Made by a program: the position numbers and the translations under genes. Positions 1,697 through 54,071 of a stretch of DNA of 64,000 nucleotides are shown here, in pieces. Under the pieces are notes generated by a model that was not told where the DNA came from, made no database searches, and saw only the letters and a list, made by a program, of their open reading frames with translations. This DNA is from Morinoia aosen (lineage: Eukaryota; Arthropoda; Malacostraca; Amphipoda; Talitridae). Within the stretch, counting starts at the first letter, position 1. The number at the start of each line of letters is the position of its first letter. Location of the stretch: NCBI GenBank assembly GCA_030386875.1, contig CM059575.1, forward strand, positions 47,956,859 through 48,020,858, read 5' to 3'.

Positions 1697-2619
1697 GCCT
1701 CACAATTTTTTACAACCCTGACAGGTGAAATAAACTCTCAAGGCAAATTTCATTACTACTTTCTTTTTTGCGGCTTCTCAAATTTTTTTGCTTGTAACTA
1801 CTTTACTACCTAGTAGACACCCTGTTATGGGAATGAAAGAAATGTCCAATAATCAACACAAAGCAATAGTACTGAATCATAAGAATTAAATACTTTACAT
1901 TTCAACATGACAGGTCTTAATTTACTTGAGGTATCAGCAAAGGCTTCATTGGAGGGATTGCATGAAAAGAACTATTGTCTCTAGCTTCAGACTCAAGCAA
2001 ATCTAGATGGATTTCACTTACTGAGTTTCCAAAGTTTTATTGACCCTGGGCTATTATCAATGGGAGTATCACATTGAATTTTGACAGTTAAATGAAACAG
2101 ATTTACTGAACAAGTCTAAGCGTTCATCAGGATGTGACTAAGAATTAGAGGGAATTAAGAGCTGTTCACTTCATTTCCATTATTGGATGATTCTGAAATT
2201 AATCAATCATTAACACAAGGTTGGGAGACATTACCAAATACATCTGGGCAAGTGTTAGAAACTAGATCATTTATTATTCAACTTTTCAACATTACAAAAC
2301 CTTTCCAGAATATCATGGTAAGAACAATGGTAAGAAATTCACTTTGCATATTTTTATTGATTAATTGTCAATAGTTGAAAAATTCACTAACTCTGTAGTC
2401 TATAAAAAAAAAATATTTTGATGTACAAGCATCTTCAGGCTGAAAATACATATAAAAACACATACAGTCACAATGATAAAGTGCAAATCTAATACCCAAA
2501 GCTACATCCAACAGAGTGATAATTTTGAAAATGACAGCACTGGAAAATGATTAGAAGCAAAACTTGTACCACATTAATAAGTGCTGGTGAGACTATATCT
2601 TTTTACTTTATAATTAAAA

Positions 2620-4405
2620 ACTCAGGTTTTATTTCGAAAAGCTCGGGTTACATTTCGAAAAGCTCGGGTTACATTTCGAAAAGCTCGGGTTACATTTCGA
2701 AAAGCTCGGGTTACATTTCGAAAAGCTCAGGTTACATTTCGAAAAGCTCGGGTTACATTTCGAAAAGCTCGGGTTACATTTCGAAAAGCTTGGATTACAT
2801 TTCGATAAGCTCGGGTTACATTTTGAAAAGCTCGGGTTACATTTTGAAAAGCTCGGGTTACATTTTGAAAAGCTCGGGTTACATTTCGAAAAGCTCGGGT
2901 TACATTTCGAAAAGCTCGGGTTACATTTCGAAAAGCTCGGGTTACATTTCGAAAAGCTCGGGTTACATTTCGAAAAGCTCGGGTTTTATTTCAAAATGCT
3001 GTGATTTCATTTTAAAAAAGCTCTGATTTCATTTCAAAAAGCTCTGATTTCATTTCAAAAAGCTCTGATTTCATTTCAAAAAGCTCTGATTTCATTTCAA
3101 AAAGCTCTGATTTCATTTCAAAAAGCTCTAATTTTGTTTCAAAAGCTCTGATTTTGTTTCAAAAAGCTCTGATTTTGTTTCAAAAAGCTCTGATTTTGTT
3201 TCAAAAAGCTCTGATTTTGTTTCAAAAAGCTCTGATTTTGTTTCAAAAAGCTCTGATTTCATTTCAAAAAGCTCTGATTTTGGTTCAAAAAGCTCTGATT
3301 TCATTTCAAAAAGCTCTGATTTCATTTCAAAAAGCTCTGATTTTGTTTCAAAAAGCTCTGATTTCATTTCAAAAAGCTCTGATTTTGTTTCATAAAGCTC
3401 TGATTTTGTTCCAAAAAGCTCTGATTTTGTTCCAAAAAGCTCTGATTTTGTTTCAAAAAGCTCTGATTTTGTTTCAAAAAGCTCTGATTTTGTTTCAAAA
3501 AGCTCTGATTTTGTTTCAAAAAGCTCTGATTTTGTTTCAAAAAGCTCAGGTTTTGTTTCAAAAAGCTCAGGTTTTATAACTAGGTCACATATTATTTTGA
3601 AAAATCTCAAGTTCAATTTAAAAAAACCTCAAGCTCAATTTAAAAACCCTCAAGTTCAATTTAAAAAAAACTCAAGTTCAATTTCAAAAAACCTCAAGGT
3701 AAATTTAAAAAACCTCAGGTTCAATGTAAAAAACCTCAAATTCATTTTAAAAAACCTAAAGTTTAATGTAAAAAAACCTCAAGTTCATATTAAAAAACCT
3801 AAAGTTCAATTTAAAAATCTCAAGTTCAATTTAAAAATCTCAAGTTCAATTTAAAAAACCTCAGGTTCACTGTATGAAATCTCAGGTTCAATGTAAGAAA
3901 TCTCAGGTTCAATGTAAGAAATCTCAGGTTCAATGTAAGAAATCTCAGGTTCAATGTAAAAAACGTCAGGTTCAATGTAAAAAACCTCAGGTTCAATGTA
4001 AAAAACCTGAGTTTCAATGTAAAAAACATCAGGTTCAGTGTAAAAAAAAAATGTAAAAAACCTAAGGTTCAATGTAAAAAAGGTCAAGTTCAATGTAAAA
4101 AAGGTCAAGTTCAATGTAAAAAAGGTCAAGTTCAATGTAAAAAAGGTCAAGTTCAATGTAAAAAAGGTCAAGTTCAATGTAAAAAGGTCAAGTTCAATGT
4201 AAAAAAGGTCAAGTTCAATGTAAAAAAGTTCAAGTTTAATGTAAAAAAGTTCAAGTTTAATGTAAAAAAGTTAAATTTTAACTTAAAAATGCTCAAGTTT
4301 AATTTTAAAATGCTCAAGTTGATTTAAAAAATCTGAAATTGGTTTAAAAAATCTGAAGTTGGTTTAAAAAAAGCTCAAGTTCAATTTAAAGCACCCAATT
4401 TTGAC
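2620..4405. repeat. 21-bp minisatellite array with three sequence blocks
   Basis: The array is tandem with a 21-bp period. Block 1 (about 2620-2990) has the core GGGTTACATTTCGAAAA. Block 2 (about 2991-3580) has cores TGATTTCATTTCAAAAA and TGATTTTGTTTCAAAAA. After a break of about 20 bp, block 3 (about 3598-4405) has cores CAAGTTCAATTTAAAAA and GGTTCAATGTAAGAAA. Because 21 is a multiple of three and the units lack stops, long open frames of seven-residue repeats appear on both strands; these are artefacts. Neighbouring units are near-identical within a block and differ between blocks, as expected from local unequal exchange or slippage. Confidence 0.95.
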
Positions 4406-25724: not shown

Positions 25725-27479
25725 ATTCACATACGAGTTTGCGGTATCATGGATACCGAATTCCTGAGTGTTCCATGAAAAGATCGTGTTTACGTTTGAC
25801 ATTTTATCAGGTTAGCATAGTCTACGTAATGTTAATGAAATATTTTCCCGGGTCCATTGTTTTTCATGTTTGACATATTATCAGGATAGCTTTGGTTAGG
25901 GTAGGATATTAGGTTATGTTAGGGTAGGACGGGTTAGGTTCCAATATGTTATGCTAGAATTTGTTAGGTAATGTTGACCGAATTTTTTCTCGGGTTCACC
26001 TAGTTGAACGATGACATTGCTCAACCCATTGATTACGTTGATTCAAATGATTCAGGATAAGATAGGTTAGTATAGGGTAAATTAGGTTAGGTTAGGCTAG
26101 GATAGGATAGGTCGAGGTACGATAGGTTAGAATGCGACAGGTTAGGATAGGATGATTTAGGATAGGTTAGCATAGGTTAGGTGATGTTGATGGAATTTTT
26201 TCACGTGTCCATGGTTTTTTCTATATTTGACACATTATCAGGATAGCTTTGTTAGAGTTGGATAGTAGGATATTTGTTTAGGATGGGTTTCGTTAGAAAA
26301 TGCTACGTTACAATTTGTTAGGTAATGTGACGGAATATTTTCACGGGTTCACCAGGGTAAAAGTTTTAAGTATCTTGAAATATCAATGAAATTAGTATAG
26401 TGTGGGAATATTTCGTTGAGCTAGCACCTACCTCTTCATTTTAGTTTAAAAACTTCAACCTCAAACGCTAAAATGCTTTGCCAGGAAAATTTTCGGTATT
26501 TAAAATACAGTTTTTTGTATTTATGAAGAAAACATAAATAAATTTTTAACTGAACTTGCTCAAGCTGAATAGAAAAGGTTATTGAGTATGTTGTTCGGAC
26601 TCGGTGGAGAGAACTTAGAAGTAATCAGTGGTAATTTACGCGAGTAAGCTTCTGGAATGCTTAAAAAGTGGTTACGCGAAATCTTTTGAGTTCCCTTTTT
26701 TTATAATTTACTTTAAATATTTCCGTCCAAGTTAAATAACTTCAAAATTTTGTCAGATACCCTGAACTGGAAGCATTAGCCATCTTGGCACTAGAGTCCC
26801 GTTAGTGCTTAAATGGTTAGGTTTGGTTAGAATAGGATAGGTTAATTTAGGTTAGGTTAGGATAGGTTAGCCAGCATAGGTAAGGGGATGTTGCCAGATT
26901 TTTTTTCACGGGTCCACGTTTTTTATGTTTGACATATTATCATGATAGGTTCGGTTAGCATAGGTCATGAAGAGATAGGTTAGAATATGTTAGGTTAGGG
27001 TAGCGTAGGTTAGAATATGTTAAGTTAGGGTAGCGTAGGTTAGAATATGTTATGTTAGAATTTGTTAAGTAATGTTGAAATTTGTTTACGGCTCCACGTT
27101 TTTTTATGCTTCACGTATTATCAGGATAGGTTCGGTTAGGATAGGTTAGGCAATGTTGACGGAATTTTTTCATGGGTTCACAGTTTTTTGCGTTCGGCTT
27201 ATTATCAGGATCGGTTCGGTTCGGTTAGGATAGGTTATGTTAGGTTAGAACATGTTACGTTGGAATTGGTAAGGTAATGTTGACCGAGTATTTTTTCACG
27301 GGTCCACCTATCGCAACGATGGCATTGCCCGTGGAATTTCCACGGGTCCTGCTAATTAAATTAAATTCAAGAAAAAATATACTGGTTTTCTCTTCCGAGA
27401 TATTTAGATATTTTTGTCTCTCACTATTAATTTCATCTGATTTGCTGATAAAATTTTTCGTCAATAAATTACCATCTCT

Positions 27480-29739: not shown

Positions 29740-30632
29740 TAAAGGCCCGTCCACACTATCAATCTTTCGCCCGAAGTTCGTGTTTTTCGGCAGTCCGCGA
29801 ACACGAACACAGATGAAAAGTTCGCAGATTTCGGTGTGTTTGTGTTTTCGAACGTGTTGGAAAACACGAACACGAACTTTCGGTCAAACAGCGAACACTC
29901 GTTTTGTTTATGTATTGTGGAAGGTGGTTTTGCGAGTGAATTACTTGGTTTCTATGTCTTTCCTATTTCATCGATTTATTTATGTTTTTGGTGCAAATTA
30001 TGGTAATTGTAGGGTGGCACGGACATTTATTTACCAAAATGAACCACGTAACGATGTTATTTCATTTTATTCAGATATGGCTGAATATGTAAGTAGGTTT
30101 GGATTTATTTGAGGTGAATGTAATTGAATAAAAATTGCTGAAACCGAAGCTGAATATGCATAAAATTATCAAAGTTTACTTATTTTGACATCTAGGCTAA
30201 CTTAAATATAATATTGAATATTTTTCAGTAGTATGCCAAGAGTGGTAGCTACTAATTTGCAGCTGATAAAATTGGCACAAAAATTCATTTGCAAAATCTG
30301 TGGCTATTATTTATTGTATTTATTTTTGACATTTTTTGGTTAAAATAGAATATTTTATTTCTCTTATAGCCTGATATTGATACTATGAAATTAAACTAAA
30401 TGCTATTTTTTTGTATTTTTCAGAAAGTTTTCAAACAATTGGCAATTTTGCATGAAAGGTGTTGATGTAGCAGAATAAATTTTGGAAAACTTATTTTAAA
30501 TAAAAACTAAGGCAGTTGCCTTAGATTGCCTCTGTAGTACTTCAAAGTAGTTATTGAGCAGTGGTGACTCAATGTCATTAGGTGACTCTACTATGGAACT
30601 GCAGAGCTGGGTCTTCAGAATCTTCAACAATG

Positions 30633-31187
30633 GTAAGTATTTCAGTGAATTGTTCAATTTTTCTACCTAACTTCATTCATGACTATTGAAGTTAGTAAGA
30701 TTAGTATGTATGAAAGCTTTGTTTAAAAAATATGGTCCTTAAGTATTGAATTTTTATGGCATATAGGCTTAACAATAAAAAATGAATGCAGAAGTGTGAA
30801 TTAGAATAAAATTTTTCATTTATTTGTGAACCAAATTTTGGTACTTCAACAAACCAGCCTGCTATGCAGGTTGTAAATTGGATACATTTTTTCTCAATCA
30901 ATATTATTTGTTACAAATACTATTGGAAATAATTATCAACTTTTAACATCAGGTGCCACTTCCAGCACTTTAGCTTTGGCAAAATTCTGGCTTTGTCACA
31001 TCTCTCTACAAAAACTACTTTGATGAACTTCACCTATGTTTGATTGAAATTTTACAAAATTAAACTTTGATTTGCTCAAGTGTGTAATTCTAATGTACCA
31101 AGTCATTCATAATTATTCAAGAGTTTCTATCATTTTTAGAGAGCCACCTATGATTAATAGGCAAATTATTTTCTTCTCTTCCGTCAG
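30633..31187 (+). other. Candidate intron inside the PIF/Harbinger-like element
   Basis: TG|GTAAGTATTT at 30633 is a near-ideal donor. A TTTTCTTCTCTTCCGTCAG tract ending at 31187 is a strong acceptor. The 555-bp interval is AT-rich, as expected for an insect intron. The flanking exon frames are short, so coding is not proven. Confidence 0.35.
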
Positions 31188-31340
31188 GTTGAGAAGCCCA
31201 TTGCCACCCAAGTCCTTCAGTCCATTGCCACCCAAGAAGCAATTGAAATCATTGAAGACTATTCACGGGCCTTCCTCGAATTGGTTACCATCATTACAGG
31301 TCATTACAAAGACCCTGCCTTCAAGTTCAAGCACCTCTGA
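31188..31340 (+). CDS. Candidate exon of an unknown protein
   Basis: In phase 0 after the acceptor a frame of 50 codons begins VEKPIATQVLQSIATQ, continues EDYSRAFLELVTIITG and ends KHL at a stop (31338-31340). A 14-bp segment, CATTGCCACCCAAG, is duplicated within it. A second frame over the same bases is also open to about 31434 and is rich in Ser and Pro. I recognise no domain. PIF/Harbinger elements usually carry a second, Myb/SANT-type gene besides the transposase, which would fit the position, but no such motif is visible. The hAT element inserted 67 bases downstream of the stop. Confidence 0.25.
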   Translation, partial: VEKPIATQVLQSIATQEAIEIIEDYSRAFLELVTIITGHYKDPAFKFKHL

Positions 31341-31854
31341 TGAATCCCTACCACCATCACCGTGGTCCTTTTTGTTGGTAGTCTTCTTCCAACACAAGTC
31401 TCTAAACCAGTGGTTCCCAAACTATCTTACCTGACGCCCCCTTTTTGCTTTCAGTAGACCGGCACGCCCCCAGTGCCTCTTTGTTTTCATATGACATGAT
31501 TCTTACATCTATTTCATAGCATTGTTCAGTAAAACATATTTGTTTGTATTACATTTTAATAATGAAAGCCACTCAAACGAATAGTACTACATTCCAGTAA
31601 CTAAAAAGGAAACATTTGGTTCAAAGAGAGCGAAAAAAAGGTTTGAATATTAGCAAATTGGCAATATTGAGTTGCAATTTTAAAAAAAAATTAATTTGAA
31701 ACATGGCATAAAATATTTGGAATGACTCATGAGACTAAGGCAAAATTTATGAACTAATTTAGTGAGATGGATGCTGCTGCTTCTTCCTCACGAGATCCGA
31801 AATTCTAGGATTGAAGGATGACAGCGCGGAACGCAAGTCATTTTTCACATCAAG

Positions 31855-32689
31855 AGAAGTGTACCCCTTTAAAAAAAATTCTTTATTATTGAACCTATAG
31901 TAATGAAATTTGATATACAGATAGGAAATGCAATTTGGAATCATTTGTCATTCGTAAAAAAATGCGATTTTCCCCATAGAAAACGAGATATTCATAGAAA
32001 ACGAGATTCTGGGGGGGTTTTTCAAAATGCTTCTCCTCCTACAGTTTTTGAGCTACATTGATGATTTTAGTGTCGTTGTATGCGAAAATACTTGTAGATT
32101 TCAAAAACTAACTTGGCATTCTTCAAACGTTGGTTTGAAGTTGAAAAACTTGAAAAATTAAAAAAAATGCATTTTTTCGCAAAATTTCGTACTTTATGAC
32201 GTCACAACTTTCGATTGAAAATGAATTTCTGAATGGCTTTTTAATTTTTGGAATGCCCACGTATTTCCGCATCCAATGACACCAAAATCATTACTGTAGC
32301 TCGAAAACTGTAGGAGGAGATACATTTTGACCCTCCAAAACCCATTGTTTACAGAATAAGCAAAACGAAGAAACATAAACAATTGAAATTGAATTTTTTA
32401 AAAATTTTTGGTTCAGGTTAAACCCCTGAAATCATTATAGAGCAATCCAGAGACATAGGAGAAGACACAGCAACGTTAAGTCGTGAAGAAAGTGCCAAGG
32501 GGGAGGTGCAACATGATAAAATATCACTTCCCCCTCCCCTCTCCCCCATACTTCAAACCCGTGTAGCGGGCGAACCAATGAACGTACGAACTTCATTTTT
32601 TCACAGGATGTACCTGACATCTTACCCTTCCTATGGCAGCTAAAACCCAATATCTCCAGAAAATTCGATATTTTGGGGGTACACTTCCC
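31855..32689. mobile_element. 835-bp nonautonomous element inserted in the hAT transposase
   Basis: TCAAG flanks both ends (31850-31854 and 32690-32694). The ends form a short inverted repeat, AGAAGTGTACCCC on the left and GGGAAGTGTACCCC as the reverse complement of the right. The hATC coding of the host element is interrupted exactly at this duplication. Inside is a second inverted repeat, arms about 32011-32092 and 32258-32345, sharing CTCCTCCTACAGTTTT followed by GAGCTAC. There is no coding. A 5-bp duplication with a GTGTACCCC end does not match a superfamily I can name. Confidence 0.9.
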
Positions 32690-33404
32690 TCAAGTCGGTT
32701 GCGCTGTTTTTTTTTCAGAACAACAATAGCTGAAAATCCAGCTTCTCAAAGCAAAGTAGAAGAAAAGGGAAGAATCACACGAAGTGCTTCTTCACCTACT
32801 TCTTGGTACATGGGGCGATATTTCACCCAAGACTCTCCTAACGTCAATGTTTGAAAGTCCCTTTTCGCGCTGGAGTCACATTTCAAATCGATGGCATTCT
32901 CTTGCAGTGATTCCAGTAACAACTCCACATCAGTGTTAAACGGATTCTGCACCAATGTCCAAAGAGAATTCTCCATTGAGACATTTGGGAAATAGTGCAC
33001 AAATTCCTCAGTAAGGGAATGCAGATGTGATAAAGTCTCTTTTGTCACGTCATACTGCTCAATGTTTCTCTTCTCAGATACGAGCTCATTCAGATGTAAT
33101 AACGATGAAAAGTTCCCAACTTGTACTTTTCGTTTCCAATGATAATTTTTTTTGGTGAAAGCTCTGATCACATCAGAGTGTGCAATGATGTTTGTGTTTC
33201 TTCCTTGTAACTTAAAATTGAGGTTGTTGATAGCCTCAAAAAAGTGCACAAGGTATGCTAGTGAGAGCTGAAAGTCTTCCTTTCTGAATGCTTCATAAAG
33301 TTTGTCCTGTTTCTGCTTCTGCAAGAAAATTTCCACTTCATCTTTGAGCTCGTAAAGACGACTCAGCATGTTTCCCTTGGAAAGCCAGCGGACTTCGGTG
33401 TGAA

Positions 33405-33464
33405 ACAGGAGAGTCTTGTAATCAGTACCCAAATACAGGAGAGTCTTGTAATCAGTGCTCAAAT
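33405..33464. repeat. 30-bp tandem duplication inside the transposase relic
   Basis: ACAGGAGAGTCTTGTAATCA begins at 33405 and again at 33435. Ten codons are duplicated in frame, so the open frame survives and the peptide reads TDYKTLL twice. Confidence 0.9.
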
Positions 33465-34412
33465 CTGAACAAAGAGCTGCGAAAAGCCTAGAATTCAAAG
33501 AGCTATTTTTACAAAATTCACCGCTTTTATTGCTAAATTCAGTGAACTGCGTAGATTACCAGGCAGAGTTTTGCTTGCTAATGATTGTCTGTGGATAACA
33601 CAATGAGTCCAGTTACAGCAGGATTTTTACTTTCACCAGCTTCACAAATCCAGAGCGAGATCCAGTCATTGATGATGCACCATCAGTACAAACTCCGACT
33701 AATTTTTCTCATGAAAGACCGTGCTCTTGGAAAAACTCATCAACTTTCGAAAAAACATCGATGACCTTTGCTGCTAACGTTTTTATCAAGTGAATAGATA
33801 TGGCGATTGAACCATCAACCCAGCAACATTTACAGTACACTTGAATTGTCACACACACACTTTTCGCCGCCTATACTGGAATCACACGCACACACTTCAC
33901 CACATACATTCAAATTAGCGTACAAAACTCACCGCGTATTATTCAAATTTCACACTTTCGATCACAACGAGTATTTCACACAATCAACACGACATTCTAT
34001 TCTGCATAGTTCTACCCTTGCAAATTGCCAAGGTTACAATGTCACTCATACGCGTGTGTGATCAACAATTGAAGAGTGAAATAAATCCCTACTGTGGACA
34101 AGGGGAATATGTGCTCAGGTTGACGGGATGGAGTATTGGGAGTTTGTGACGAGTCCCTCAGTGGCGTCAGTGTGGTTGGTATCATTGGCTTGTCCTAAAC
34201 GTGTAAAGAGAATTAGCTTAATAGAAAACGGGTTGGAGTGACTGCTATAATTATACTTTGCATGTATGTAATGACAGATATTTGTTCATTGAATGATTTT
34301 ATTATTCTAATGAAACAAATAATTTTGAGCAGAAGACTTCACGCCTCCTTGTATCCTCCTCACGCCTCCCTAGAGGGGCGCGCCCCCTAGTTTGGGAATC
34401 ACTGCTCTAAAC

Positions 34413-37400
34413 AGACTTGTGTTGGGTAAGTTTTGATTAGACTCTACATGAATTTAAAAGTGAAGGTTGAGAATTTTTAACACTTTCCCTGCGTTTCCAT
34501 GATTGTTGGTTTGATTAGCTTATAAGTAGCAGAACAGGTAAATCAATTTTCCAGCTTGAATATACACTGTATTCTAATTTTTCCTAATGATAATCAAAAT
34601 TTCAATTGCGCGATAACATTTTACCTCGTATGATTTCAATTATTTTTTAAAATGTCGGAAAACATCAAATGTTGTACATTTATACCTGCCATTAAATGGG
34701 CAATTAACCTGTTGGTACACATATGGCCCAATACGGAGGGAACGTGTTGAAAGAATGATGCAGGGTGCCCTTTCTGCATTGTGGCATAATGATTTGGCTG
34801 TTAATAGTTTAATTTTTTGTTGATTATAATTCCACAAAGGAAATTTTTCCACTGATGAACATAAGCCAATCATATAGTAAACAATTTAGTTGCCATTAGC
34901 ATCCTGATGCGCTGAAACAAAATGTATGTGAGTATTTACTTTGGTAGTACAGGCGTTAATCAATTGTGTATGAAGTATTAAAAAAAAGTTCCTGTAATGC
35001 AAAAAATAATGTTGAGATCATGAAATGAGTGAAGTGCTCGATTGATCAAATTCTAGTCTTTGTGTATCTCGTTAATGATGTGCTTGACCAGTAATTACAA
35101 ATTGTACTCATAATTTCGTTATGCTACATTATATGCTAGTTATGATTATTTAACATTACAATACCAGAGGGTATTTAAACTCTGAATATACTTTTTATAA
35201 TAGTCATCAAGACAAATTATCTGTATTAGATATGTAGAATATAAATGCCATATTTCTATGAATTATTTTTTCCTTGAGCTAAATGTTCACCAAATATTTA
35301 CCAGAATGCCAGTTAGGTTGTATAGTGATGATTTACGCTACATTTGTGTCCATAGAGGAGACTTAGAAATTAAGCACCTCTCTAACTTAATTCAAGCTGA
35401 AGTAAACTGTACAATTCAATTCCCGAGAATTGGTCAGGGCTGCATTAAAAAACCATCGAAGTGCACGTCAAGCACAGCATGATAGTCTATACTAGTCGCT
35501 ATACGCAGTGACGTTACTTAGCATACAAAATATAAGATGAGACAGTGGTTAAGGGATGTGCATCTCTATTCAGATTTTTCCATTGAGCTAAATGTTCACT
35601 AATTATTACCAGAATGTCAGTTATATTGTATAGTGTTGATTTTCATAAGAAATATTTATTTGCAATGTACTTTTCATCAGCTTTATGTCAGAATTTGATG
35701 GCTTGCGGTTGACTACTTATTACAGAAATATGTTATTATTGTTAGTGGATTTATAAATATTGCACAAACCCTGTGTACATGTTTGTACTCAATGATCACT
35801 ACTTTATTCCTCTCTTTGTAACACCCTTGTTGTGGTTAAAGAGGCCCAAAGTAACATATATGTTCACTTCATTGGTAATAAAAATAGTGCAAGGTATGGG
35901 GAACAACAAACTTGCAATCAAAGCTGAAAGAAACAATTAACAACTTATGAGAAACGTTTGAAATAGTTTAGAAATAACATCTTTATTGGTGAATTAATTT
36001 TAGATAGCACTGCATTCTGTTTAATCATAGTTTTTTGTCAATGGAAGATTAGATATTCAAGATCTGTGCAAACAACAAGTGACATTTGCAAATTTTTACC
36101 TTTCAAGGTATCTCTATGACTTGTTTCTGGTGCCTTAACCTTTGACTTACTGTTTTTATCCATGCAGTTATTTTCTCTGTAAATATTGAATAAAATGAAT
36201 TCACACACTTTTTGAGAACACATGTTCTGGGTTCACTCTTGTCCTTATGTTAATCAGTTTCATGAAAATGCATTCTTTAACATGGTTTTAGGTAATGGAC
36301 CTACAAAATTGTATTCAGAACAGGTTTATCATCTTCTTGGTAACTGATCGATGTCCTTCACATTTGGGATAATACACAAAAATATTCAACTGTTTTTTCC
36401 CCTTGCTTGAACACAGGACTACATGATTTTATGAAATTAAGTGATTAAGAACGCACCCTTTATGGGTAGGTGTCGGTTTTTTTAATCCCAGCGCCATGCA
36501 GGGATTTCTCCCCGTTGGGAAAGGAGAGAATTCAGATACACCCTACCCAGGTGTCGGAAATGGATACAGACTTGACCGGGTAACCGGCATTGTATCCTGA
36601 TGTCAGTTATAAAGCATTTGAAAAACCAATGTTCATGATGATAGGATGGCGGGTGAAGAAAAGTATTTAGACACCAGTGCATTACGATATGATAGTATTG
36701 TAAAGTCATGAATCATTCACACCGGTAGTGCAAATGCCCCTCGCCAGTCGTGGAAAACCAAACCAGGAAGGTTTGGCAGCGCAGGACAGTACCACGTCTG
36801 GCCCACGAGCACAAACGAATAGTAGGGTCGAGCTGGGGCTGTGAACAAACATTAACGTCAAACAAGGTCTCAAGGAAATGAATGATTTCAAGCGGAGAGA
36901 GTTAAGTTTATAATTCAAGAAATGCAATATTCTAGCTGTTCATAAATTAAAACATTGGCGATATTATAGCAGCGTTTACTTCGCAAAATACCTTTTAGAT
37001 TGAACCATAGCTTCCCTAAATCAAAAGTTTATTACGATAATTGGAGTAGTTTGAATGCCAGAAAATGTTTAAAATGATAATTCTTGGCACACTAGCATGT
37101 GTACATAAAACCTAATCCCTTCTCATCATTGAAAACTCCAAACTCCAATCCAACCAACACAGAAATTTTGGAGAGGGATGGAATGGAGGATTAACATTTT
37201 TGATGGGAAATTCTCAAAAAAAGGTCGACCGAACCCAGAGCTACATGTCACTTCGACCCACCTCAAAAGCGAACTCGTTCTGAAGTCTCTGGTACCGCTG
37301 CAGTCGTTCACAGGAAGTTCACGGGGACGCTATTTATGCAATGCAACATGTAGGTAGTTGAGGGGGTCCATAGTTCATAATAGCTCTAGGACGCAGCAGC

Positions 37401-39420
37401 AGTTTAGCCTCCACGGATGAAAGCGGTACGGCAGCACCACATCGCGGAGCAGCACAGTTGCAGCGCCCACCGCTGCCGCCAGCTCAAGGAGCTCTCTCTT
37501 CTCACTCCATCATAGTGATGCTAAAGTGGCATGCAATCTCTAGAAAAGAGTTCATGAAATTCAAGAAGTTTTATGGGAAGTTTCTCTTCAGGTAGAAATC
37601 ACTGGCTGCTGATTCCGACTCTGCTTGCGCTTGCGAAGTCTGTAAATGAGTACAACAAAGGGAATTACAGATGGAAGTCCACCGCAAATTTTTTGATGGT
37701 TTATGCATTATCGTTTCATGAGATGTGAACAATATTACTGGAAGAAAACAGTGGTTGTATAGATTCCCCTAGATATCACACAATATACAATTTGCTCATG
37801 CACCTGAAAGTTCACAAATAATGGAAGTAGGTTGGTTTCAAAGTATTTCTAATTGTAGTAGTTTACAATCAACTATGAGAACAATTGAAATATATATATG
37901 TACTTTGCACACCACTACTTTTTTGTGCGAGAGTTCATCAATTCAAGTAGCACCCCAATTTTATATTTAGACCAGAAAGTGTTGCAAAAACATAGTGCTC
38001 AGCTATGCTATTGTACCAAGTCAATACCATATTTATGATGATACGTGGGTCACTTAACTCATTTCATTACCATATTTCAAATGATTTCAACTTACTGCAA
38101 ATTTCTCAATGGTTTCAATATTCCAGAAAAATTAGTTTTCTATTTAAGCAACATTACAATACTCATTGCAAAGTAATATTTGAACCCAACACTGCAATGG
38201 GATGCATGCCTTCCTGTTTTCATCCTTAAGTAGAGTATAGATGGCCTCACAAGTTTCAGGTATGATAGAGAGCGACTGCTTTGATATTCTTGTCAAATGC
38301 TGTAGAGAAGCGCATGAATCACCTCGTGGCAGCCACCTGTAAAAAAATAATCCAAACATGAGGAACACATAAAAATGATTATGTACTAGCATCGAAATTT
38401 GTGGAATATAATTGTTATGAAGTCCGGAATAGGAGCAAATTAATTATAATCAACATGAGATGTCTAATAATAATTCAGAATAATTATTATACTTTTGTTT
38501 TTTATATACGTATTATATTTCATTATATATTTTCATACACGGATTAAATTTTTATACCCAGATTTTATACACAAAATTATATACATGGATAACTTACATT
38601 CCACATTCATACTTTTCATGAAATATGTAAGTGAGCAGGTGCTGACATAAATGATAATGAACTAAAAAAATACGGTCCTTAGCAAGCAAAAAAACTTGTT
38701 AATATAAAGATAGTCTGCTTGACATTCAGCTTTGAGTTCTCAGATTCTTCCCTTAGAACTATTTCTTAGATATGTTTAGTAGTTATAAGAGATCTAGGTG
38801 TTAACAATGTTCTCAGAAAAATATCACAGAGAAGCACACAAAAATTTATTGCGCAATAGTAGAAATACATTCTGGTATGCTTGACTGCGTAATGGATGCT
38901 TCAAAAATACGCACACAAAGTATGGATACTGCATATAGTTTAAGACACCAATTAAATGCATAACCTAAATTTTAAATTTTTGAAATAAATTGTTGGCTTA
39001 ATTAAACAGAAAAGTATTAAATAACTTTCTTAAATTACTTCAAATATTGTAGGAATATTTTATGACAAAATGAAAAATATGAGCATTTTTCACCTCTTAT
39101 AGAAAATTTAGGTCACAAAAAGTAAAAAAAAAAACATTCTATAGGCAGAGTAGGAGCATATGTTAAAGTTTTAAGCACAAGTCCAAAAATGTAAAGTTCA
39201 TGAAGAGCATTGAAAAAGATCAAGGACATCAGCTGATCCTATCTTACAACTGTAACACTGATAGTATTCGAAAAATTCTCATAATACATCAGCGATTCTT
39301 AATATTTTCTGTTCACACATGCCCACACAGATAAATTATGGTTACTAACTCTCAACAAATTAAATTTACCAATTATATACATCAATTAACTAAAACTTAC
39401 TTTGGAAGCAGTATTGTTTG
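34413..39420. other. Interior of the PIF/Harbinger-like element, no gene recognised
   Basis: A segment with GAGCTAAATGTTCAC and ACCAGAATG is duplicated at about 35262-35330 and 35575-35645. A GC-rich, CpG-containing patch lies at 37380-37500. On the minus strand an acceptor-like TTTACAG near 37648 precedes a short frame reading TSQAQAESESAASDFYLKRN and a stop near 37580, which could be a terminal exon. Nothing in this stretch matches the DDE core of a Harbinger transposase that I can identify. Confidence 0.4.
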
Positions 39421-39565
39421 TTTACACGTTGCTCGCGAACAACTTCTCTCCGCTGAAAGCGTATAGTCTGGACGTCTGTACACGATTCGGAAAAGTTTGT
39501 GTTTTTGTTCGCGTTTTGGTGTGTTCGTGATTGACAAAGTGTTTGATAGCGTAGACGGGCCTTAA

Positions 39566-41689: not shown

Positions 41690-41985
41690 GGTTGGATTAA
41701 TTTGAACTTGACTCGGATTAATTTGAACTTGACTCGGATTAATTTGAACTTGACTCGGATTAATTTGAACTTGACTCGGATTAATTTGAACTTGACTCGG
41801 ATTAATTTGAACTTGACTCGGATTAATTTGAACTTGACTTGGATTAAATTGAACTTGACTTGAATTAAATTGAACTTGACTTGGATTAATTCGAACTTGA
41901 CTCGGACTAATTTGAACTTGACTCTGATTAATTTGAACTTGACTTGGTTTAAATTGAACTTGACTTAGATTAATTTGAAGTGAAA
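41690..41985. repeat. Second 21-bp minisatellite array
   Basis: About 14 units of 21 bp with core ATTAATTTGAACTTGACTC. The first seven or so units are identical and later ones diverge. The reverse complement core GTCAAGTTCAAATTAAT resembles the CAAGTTCAATTTAAA unit of block 3 in the array at 2620-4405, and the period is the same. The seven-residue repeat open frames (INLNLTR and others) are artefacts of the period. Confidence 0.95.
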
Positions 41986-53397: not shown

Positions 53398-54071
53398 GGT
53401 AAAATTTTCAGAACAAAACACTAATCGATTTTCAAAATTTTCTTGCTCGAACCAAGGTAATCACATCAAAATAAACAACTTTTCTTCCATGCCCTTTCCG
53501 GCGCAAAAGAGTATTTAACATGTTATAACGTTAGGTTAATTTGTGTGTTGCATTGCAGTTACACTACGAACAGCAGAAACTGTTACGTTCGGGGCAGAGG
53601 AAATGGGGAAAAGACTAGTGCACTAACCTAACCTAGCCTAACATAAAATAACGTAATCTTACGGAACCTAACCTAAAGTAACCCAACGTAACCTAACCCA
53701 AAGTAACCTAACGTAACCTAACCTAACTCAAACTAACGTAACAACGTAACCTAACGTAACCTAACGTAACGTGACCTAACATAACCTAACATGTGCTAAC
53801 GTAACCTAAAGTAACAAAACCTAACGTAAGTTAACCTAACCTAAAGTACCCAAACTTACTCTAACAGCTCAAGCGCGCAACGGTTTCTGCTGCTTGAATG
53901 ACTGGAACTGTTATGGAACACGAAACTTAACCTACCGCTATAACTCGTTAAATAATCATTTGCGCCGGAAATGCCATAGGGGAAAAGTTGTTTATTTTGA
54001 TGTGATTACCATGATGTAAGCATGAAAATTTCGAAAATCGATTAGTGTATTGTTCTAAAAAAATACCCATA
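53398..54071. mobile_element. MITE with long TIRs and a CCTAACGTAA interior
   Basis: Both arms (about 53405-53530 and the reverse complement of about 53935-54060) share ACACTAATCGATTTTC and TAATCACATCAAAATAAACA. Comparison with the empty site in copy A (near 4735) supports ATTA as the target duplication (53394-53397 and 54072-54075). The interior (about 53609-53865) is a degenerate run of CCTAACGTAA and CCTAACCTAA words, related to the arthropod telomere repeat. No coding. Part of the arm matches the MITE at 5507-5997. Confidence 0.85.
53609..53865. repeat. CCTAACGTAA/CCTAA repeat inside the MITE
   Basis: About 250 bp of imperfect ten-base and five-base words. The CCTAA component equals TTAGG on the other strand. 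It is interstitial and bounded by the MITE arms. Confidence 0.9.

Follow-up and report, generated by a model that had tools for sequence, protein, structure and literature searches.

Three nested DNA transposons with readable target duplications, and a mosaic host copy, in the amphipod Morinoia aosen

Near the middle of a 64,000-nucleotide stretch of the Morinoia aosen genome (contig CM059575.1, C20:47956859-48020858 in our numbering; hereafter the window), three DNA transposons lie one inside another, and the ends and target duplications of all three can be read directly. The outer level reads TAA / AGGCCCGTCCACACTATCA ... TGATAGCGTAGACGGGCCT / TAA and is a non-autonomous PHIS (PIF/Harbinger-type) element at 29743..39562 on the plus strand, about 6.8 kb long without its hAT insert, with terminal inverted repeats (TIRs) AGGCCCGTCCACACTATCA and AGGCCCGTCTACGCTATCA. 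Its duplication stands at 29740..29742 on the left, in the context C/TAA, and at 39563..39565 on the right, in the context TAA/G. The middle level reads CTCTAAAC / CAGTGGTTCCCAAACTA ... TAGTTTGGGAATCACTG / CTCTAAAC and is a hAT-type element at 31408..34404, about 2.16 kb without the innermost insert, with TIRs CAGTGGTTCCCAAACTA and CAGTGATTCCCAAACTA, a remnant transposase frame on the minus strand, and octamer duplications at 31400..31407 and 34405..34412. The inner level reads TCAA / GAGAAGTGTACCCC ... GGGGTACACTTCCC / TCAA and is an 836-bp non-autonomous element, best read as Kolobok-type, at 31854..32689 on the plus strand. Its TCAA duplications, a variant of TTAA, occupy 31850..31853 and 32690..32693, next to a left TIR at 31854..31867 (GAGAAGTGTACCCC, plus strand, with the family form GGGAAGTGTACCCC) and a right TIR GGGAAGTGTACCCC at 32676..32689 on the minus strand.

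The search covered 1.99 Gb in 29 contigs, and all three families proved to be multi-copy; their copy counts are lower bounds, as only part of the candidates was scored. The copies also preserve the empty sites. A single CTCTAAAC, without the hAT element, is present in 10 of 10 fetched outer copies (L045-L054), and all 11 distinct hAT copies compared (L036, L055-L064) run uninterrupted through the site of the inner element, which in L055 reads CATCAAGTCGG. Empty sites at both inner levels mean that the inner insertion came later than that of the hAT element, and the hAT insertion later than that of the outer element. These data support a nesting of three DNA transposons from three superfamilies, its order set by the nesting itself. 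A first-pass annotation of the locus, made from the sequence alone, had proposed just such a three-level structure, with a different class of element at each level and an order fixed without dating. The empty sites bear out both the structure and the order, and the outer ends, TAA duplications, and hAT octamers stand exactly as first placed. That annotation had also staked its reading on finding second copies of the inner element and of the outer TIR, and on copies ending where it said they should: both have many copies, and the outer ends hold, but the inner ends have to be shifted by one base.

The outer family is abundant and retains clear signs of its target preference. At least 26 places, including the window, match the first 857 bp of the element over their whole length, the others at 97-99%, and in 14 further places the match, at 92-94%, covers roughly the first 640 bases (40 of 1167 candidates scored); the left TIR occurs exactly at 339 genomic sites, against 0 for a reversed control. 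Target duplications take the form TNA and are identical in 9 of 12 pairs, drawn from 26 left and 13 right flanks after exclusion of the pair L090/L091, whose right end was not found. C precedes the duplication in 19 of 26 flanks and G follows it in 7 of 13, which is a preference and not an absolute rule. As described in PMC4482050, the duplication is TWA for PIF/Harbinger elements and C/TNA/G for the NuwaII group; the outer family thus shows both the 3-bp duplication of the superfamily and, as a preference, the NuwaII target.

Within the young outer copy L045 we found no frame longer than 133 amino acids inside the element. The DDE_Tnp_4 profile matched at least 150 genomic places (150 of 1382 candidates scored), and one of them, C2:63063237, sits in a 10.26-kb element bounded by outer-type TIRs, with a protein that matches the profile at E 1.4e-32. 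At one end of this relative, 95 bp are 99-100% identical to the left end of the outer element; at the other, 88 bp are 95% identical to the right ends of L045 and L054 and 91% identical to the right end of the window copy. Of its fetched gene piece, the first 71 bp match positions 37575..37645 of the window at 84.5%, a relic on the minus strand of a DDE_Tnp_4 transposase exon that has 18 of 24 amino acids identical to the relative and is all that the window keeps of this gene. Given the shared ends and the exon relic, we take the outer element to be a rearranged relative of a PHIS element that encodes a transposase; the flanks of that relative, TAA on one side and TTA on the other, are non-identical and weigh against this. 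Two more DDE_Tnp_4 places (C5:49189443 and C6:12902398) have, as judged by eye, an outer TIR site no more than 9 kb away among the first 100 of the 339 listed.

In its TNA duplication, the preferred C before and G after, and the DDE_Tnp_4 domain of its full-length relative, the outer family resembles the NuwaII group of PHIS as presented in PMC4482050. It differs in being represented here by a non-autonomous element, and its TIR starts with AGG, whereas most NuwaII TIRs listed there start with GG. No arthropod is among the 12 NuwaII species named in that survey, and the likeness is one of target pattern and transposase domain, not of position in a transposase tree.

The window copy has structural features of its own. 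A segment at 35335..35573 (plus strand), flanked by a direct repeat of about 65-70 bp, is absent from the 10 outer copies compared, which hold the repeat once, and at 35836 the window is without a segment of about 982 bp found in young copies or about 298 bp found in old ones. Elsewhere, a Harbinger transposase at C14:10479431 was considered as the outer element's own and rejected, as its family recurs in other places with a constant edge. The outer copy around it (C14:10472779-10483911) measures 11.13 kb between TIRs, or about 7.47 kb plus 3.66 kb, and is a further host element of this kind, here carrying another guest, an independent Harbinger of about 3.66 kb with DDE_Tnp_4 and MADF proteins. 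A second protein of the Myb/SANT (MADF) type was seen only in L089, a different Harbinger family. Nine L089-type copies at C9:84662176-84695174, spaced about 3665 bp apart and changing orientation around 84.677 Mb (four one way, five the other), form an inverted array of the whole transposon.

The outer copy in the window is a mosaic of young and old sequence. We aligned it with five of the eight fetched young copies (L045, L046, L048, L051, and L052) and with both old ones (L053 and L054), which gave 206 diagnostic sites in all. All 54 diagnostic sites between 29813 and 31334 show the young state in the window; from 31348, the first non-young site, to the end of the element the states are mixed. 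Likelihood places the switch at 31383, with a log-likelihood gain of 40.8, and the hAT duplication, which starts at 31400, lies 17-66 bp from it. The young patch (29743..31334, plus strand) has 3 private substitutions in 1506 sites, and over this left stretch the window differs from seven young copies at 6-13 positions, as the young copies differ among themselves at 4-14. The old part (34413..39562, plus strand) is about 93% identical to the copies compared and has 170 private substitutions in 4471 sites, summed over three stretches. None of the 48 other listed matches to the right 2.56 kb (40 of 948 candidates scored) exceeds 94% identity, which makes a chimera shared by a whole subfamily unlikely.

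Gene conversion that ended near the hAT element is the simplest reading of this pattern. One possibility, which we hold only tentatively, is that the nested hAT element itself blocked recombination, so that overwriting of the outer element by a young PHIS copy began at the left end and went no further than the hAT. If so, the older half of the host was preserved by a nested insert, and an ectopic conversion between DNA transposons can still be read in the sequence. Patchwise replacement of one transposon copy by another has been described as ectopic gene conversion (PMC8230782, PMC6598467); PMC8230782 concerns Alu, whereas the outer mosaic involves DNA transposons and a patch that ends beside a nested insertion. 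For the dating of nested copies by divergence, the consequence is that one side of an insert can mislead badly: here the left looks young and the right of the same copy is old. Should such switches recur beside other nested inserts in this genome, a block by insertions to transposon gene conversion would become testable.

Rather unlikely, though the strongest competitor to conversion, is a crossover between two outer copies that left halves from different insertions on either side. It would yield an equally sharp switch, and all that backs a single outer insertion is the TAA/TAA pair, for which a chance match is not rare, with A in the middle position of 11 of 26 left flanks of the family. A crossover is harder to reconcile with outer duplications that match and with the C/TAA/G context on both sides. 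Those same matching duplications speak against a chimera of the assembly, which we regard as improbable even though the left part belongs to a young repeat whose multiple copies are nearly identical.

The middle element belongs to a family of which 39 other scored matches to its 5' part reach 91-97% identity (40 of 112 candidates scored). Its remnant transposase frame runs on the minus strand from 33555 to the inner insertion (32690..33555) and continues beyond it at 31759..31853. The C-terminal coding sequence is cut there, with ..QRNRL on one side of the inner element and DVKNDLR.. on the other, and is continuous in L055 (..QRNRLDAENDLR..), so the inner element does split the hAT transposase, as first noted; the frame holds one other in-frame stop besides this interruption, in its 32690..33555 part. 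Of 12 copies including the window, 7 had both ends aligned and could be scored for duplications: 5 have a perfect 8-bp duplication, L055 matches at 7 of 8 bases, and L056 has none. TA occupies positions 4-5 in all 6 usable copies. The family therefore has the 8-bp duplication and short TIRs of hAT elements, and its TA at positions 4-5 and CAGTG ends resemble the Buster group, for which PMC3517528 gives the target pattern nnnTAnnn. The protein lends the assignment no support: the remnants have no Pfam match above cut-off, including no hAT domain, no PDB chain scored below E 0.09 and none is a convincing solved relative, and a single-sequence structure model had a mean predicted local distance difference test (pLDDT) score of 32 and was unusable. 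As a result, the hAT assignment rests on the ends and the duplication, and the Buster grouping of this remnant on the target pattern.

For the inner element, 80 matches to an 825-bp query include 39 other copies of nearly full length at 88-94% identity (40 of 4639 candidates scored). The element has an internal palindrome at 32022..32330, with arms at 32022-32121 and 32231-32330 that are 81% complementary, and a reverse match over about 300 bp also occurs in each of the 40 scored copies. Its boundaries were drawn by comparing the ends of 20 fetched copies and of 10 further exact-TIR pairs found genome-wide. G precedes GGAAG in 17 of the 20 fetched copies, the exceptions being L005, L022, and L025, and so belongs to the terminal repeat, leaving a 4-bp duplication. 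The element is present as first described, but at 836 bp with a TCAA duplication, not at 835 bp with TCAAG. When duplication lengths of 2-10 were tested against shuffled pairs (2000 shuffles) in 17 GTG-type copies (the 10 pairs, the window, L065, and five fetched copies, with the degraded L005 excluded), only 4 bp exceeded the shuffles, with a mean match of 0.96 that 0 of 2000 shuffles reached. The 4-bp duplication is perfect in 14 of these 17 and TTAA on both sides in 10, the window having TCAA. Genome-wide, TTAAGGGAAGNGTACY, which joins TTAA to the TIR, occurs at 318 sites, against 5 for the reversed pattern. A length read from a single copy can thus err by one base and mislead classification.

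Copies with the GAG-type TIR, which has 366 exact genomic sites against 4 for its control, behave differently. Tested separately, 1 of 10 such relatives had a perfect 4-bp duplication and no length stood out (L017, L022, L025, and L026 were excluded because of rearrangement, a shift, or flanks resembling those of L024). The nine others (L007, L008, L016, L018-L021, L023, and L024) have mostly intact TIRs and yet 4-bp flanks that do not match, and exact TTAA precedes 46 of the first 100 listed GAG-type TIR sites and not the other 54. Both results count against the Kolobok reading given below. The preference for TTAA stands, and the GAG group shows much decay or variation.

Two longer copies stand apart. 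L065 (C22:39430088-39433932, 3.8 kb) was considered as a possible autonomous version and rejected, being an inner-family copy that holds another recent nested insertion, with two 946-bp direct repeats 99.8% alike and no long frame found. L086 (C7:37058836-37061433, 2.6 kb) is a foldback-like relative with TIRs of about 185 bp, repeated internal units, and no long frame.

Kolobok elements are characterized by TTAA duplications and 5'-RR and YY-3' termini, and their transposases by a DDD/E layout that includes C/DxxH and, ahead of the last E, a zinc finger, which follows that motif in almost all Kolobok transposases (PMC9587614). The GTG-type inner family has the 4-bp TTAA duplication, with TCAA in the window copy itself, and its termini are GG..CC, the window having GA at the left end and CC at the right. 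The same genome contains candidate transposases: the PF20700 profile has at least 111 matches (114 of 128 candidates scored), among them L087 and L088, two copies of one 2.73-kb element that are 99.3% alike and carry a 589-aa frame. L087 has the ends TTAA / GGGAAGCGAACGG ... CCGTTCGCTTCCC / TTAA, and its protein matches PF20700 at E 6.6e-43. The motifs FDGSW (213), GDGDSS (311), CINH (340), CPDGTTSWC (433) with HASH (456), and NPNESLHS (497) follow the order described for Kolobok (FDGSW, GDGD, CINH, CC..H..H, NPNESLH), and we read them as the probable catalytic D, D, and E with a zinc finger. Together with TTAA, these motifs mark the L087 element as Kolobok-like. It shares with the inner element TTAA and GGGAAG, the first 6 terminal bases.

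Judged by its TTAA and GG..CC signature, and by TTAA/GGGAAG elements of the same genome that encode a transposase with Kolobok motifs, the inner element is best read as a non-autonomous Kolobok-type transposon. Several findings weigh on the other side. The catalytic residues of L087 were assigned by motif and not by alignment, and L087 and the inner element have only 9 of 14 terminal bases in common. A search between exact inner TIRs turned up no transposase gene: of the 111 PF20700 matches (114 of 128 candidates scored), the one nearest to any of the 44 exact GTG-type TIR sites lies 6.8 kb off, outside the element. We consider the Kolobok class well supported and L087-type elements as its particular partner less so. 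The first-pass view that the element fits no nameable superfamily is not supported: an apparently unknown superfamily becomes a Kolobok-type family, for which the same genome offers a transposase partner that can be tested. An early idea, Sola2, suggested by the 4-bp duplication, was dropped once TTAA emerged.

Sola3 transposons make TTAA duplications, as does piggyBac, and an origin of the inner element from one of these would fit the failure to find a transposase between exact inner ends. We think this quite improbable, since the CC..GG ends given for piggyBac (PMC10045372) are the opposite of the GG..CC found here and a Kolobok-like transposase element with TTAA/GGGAAG ends is present in the same genome. 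A 5-bp duplication and no named superfamily is hardly credible, for although TCAAG stands on both sides of the window copy and G also follows the right 4 bp in three more of the 17 copies (L003, L068, and L076), counting G as flank gives a 5-bp match in these 4 of 17, against 14 of 17 at 4 bp, and G before GGAAG and the genome-wide association with TTAA oppose it as well.

As a Kolobok-type family, the inner element compares well with non-autonomous members such as the Xenopus T2-MITE, which the accounts in PMC6004289 and PMC9587614 present as having 4-bp TTAA duplications, short TIRs, many copies, and no transposase. Both start with two purines, GG in the inner element and AG in T2-MITE. Unlike T2-MITE as described there, the inner element is 836 bp long with a 300-bp internal palindrome, has the TIR GGGAAGTGTACCCC, uses variant targets such as TCAA, and belongs to a family for which no transposase source with the same TIR was found. 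A further PF20700 group, at C12:23635953-24016801, comprises eight matches whose scores are similar and whose frames are 614 aa long, arranged in pairs about 19 kb apart; from positions and scores, not sequence comparison, it looks like a duplicated transposase cluster.

We hold with considerable confidence an overall reading in which a Kolobok-type element is nested in a hAT element, that element in a PHIS element, and the left 1.6 kb of the PHIS element was later overwritten. This history began when the non-autonomous PHIS element entered a C/TAA/G site. The hAT element then inserted into it at CTCTAAAC, and its transposase remnant in turn received, at the TTAA-like site TCAA, the non-autonomous Kolobok-type element. 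Transposases of the respective superfamilies presumably moved all three in trans. Later, sequence from a subfamily that had recently amplified appears to have replaced the outer left 1.6 kb, most likely through ectopic gene conversion that halted near the hAT element, which is absent from the donor copies.

Titles and abstract openings in the open-licence literature on arthropod Kolobok short elements, insect NuwaII, and gene conversion with nested or mosaic transposons describe neither these families nor this mosaic; the families may well be catalogued in Repbase or Dfam.

The window contains simpler repeats outside the nest. Arrays of a 21-bp unit lie at 2616-3568, 3596-4390, and 41694-41979, with about 45, 37, and 14 copies; more than one reading frame is open through each of the first two. 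At 53623-53844 and 26054-27248 there are short repeats of the type CTAACCTAAC or TAGGTT.

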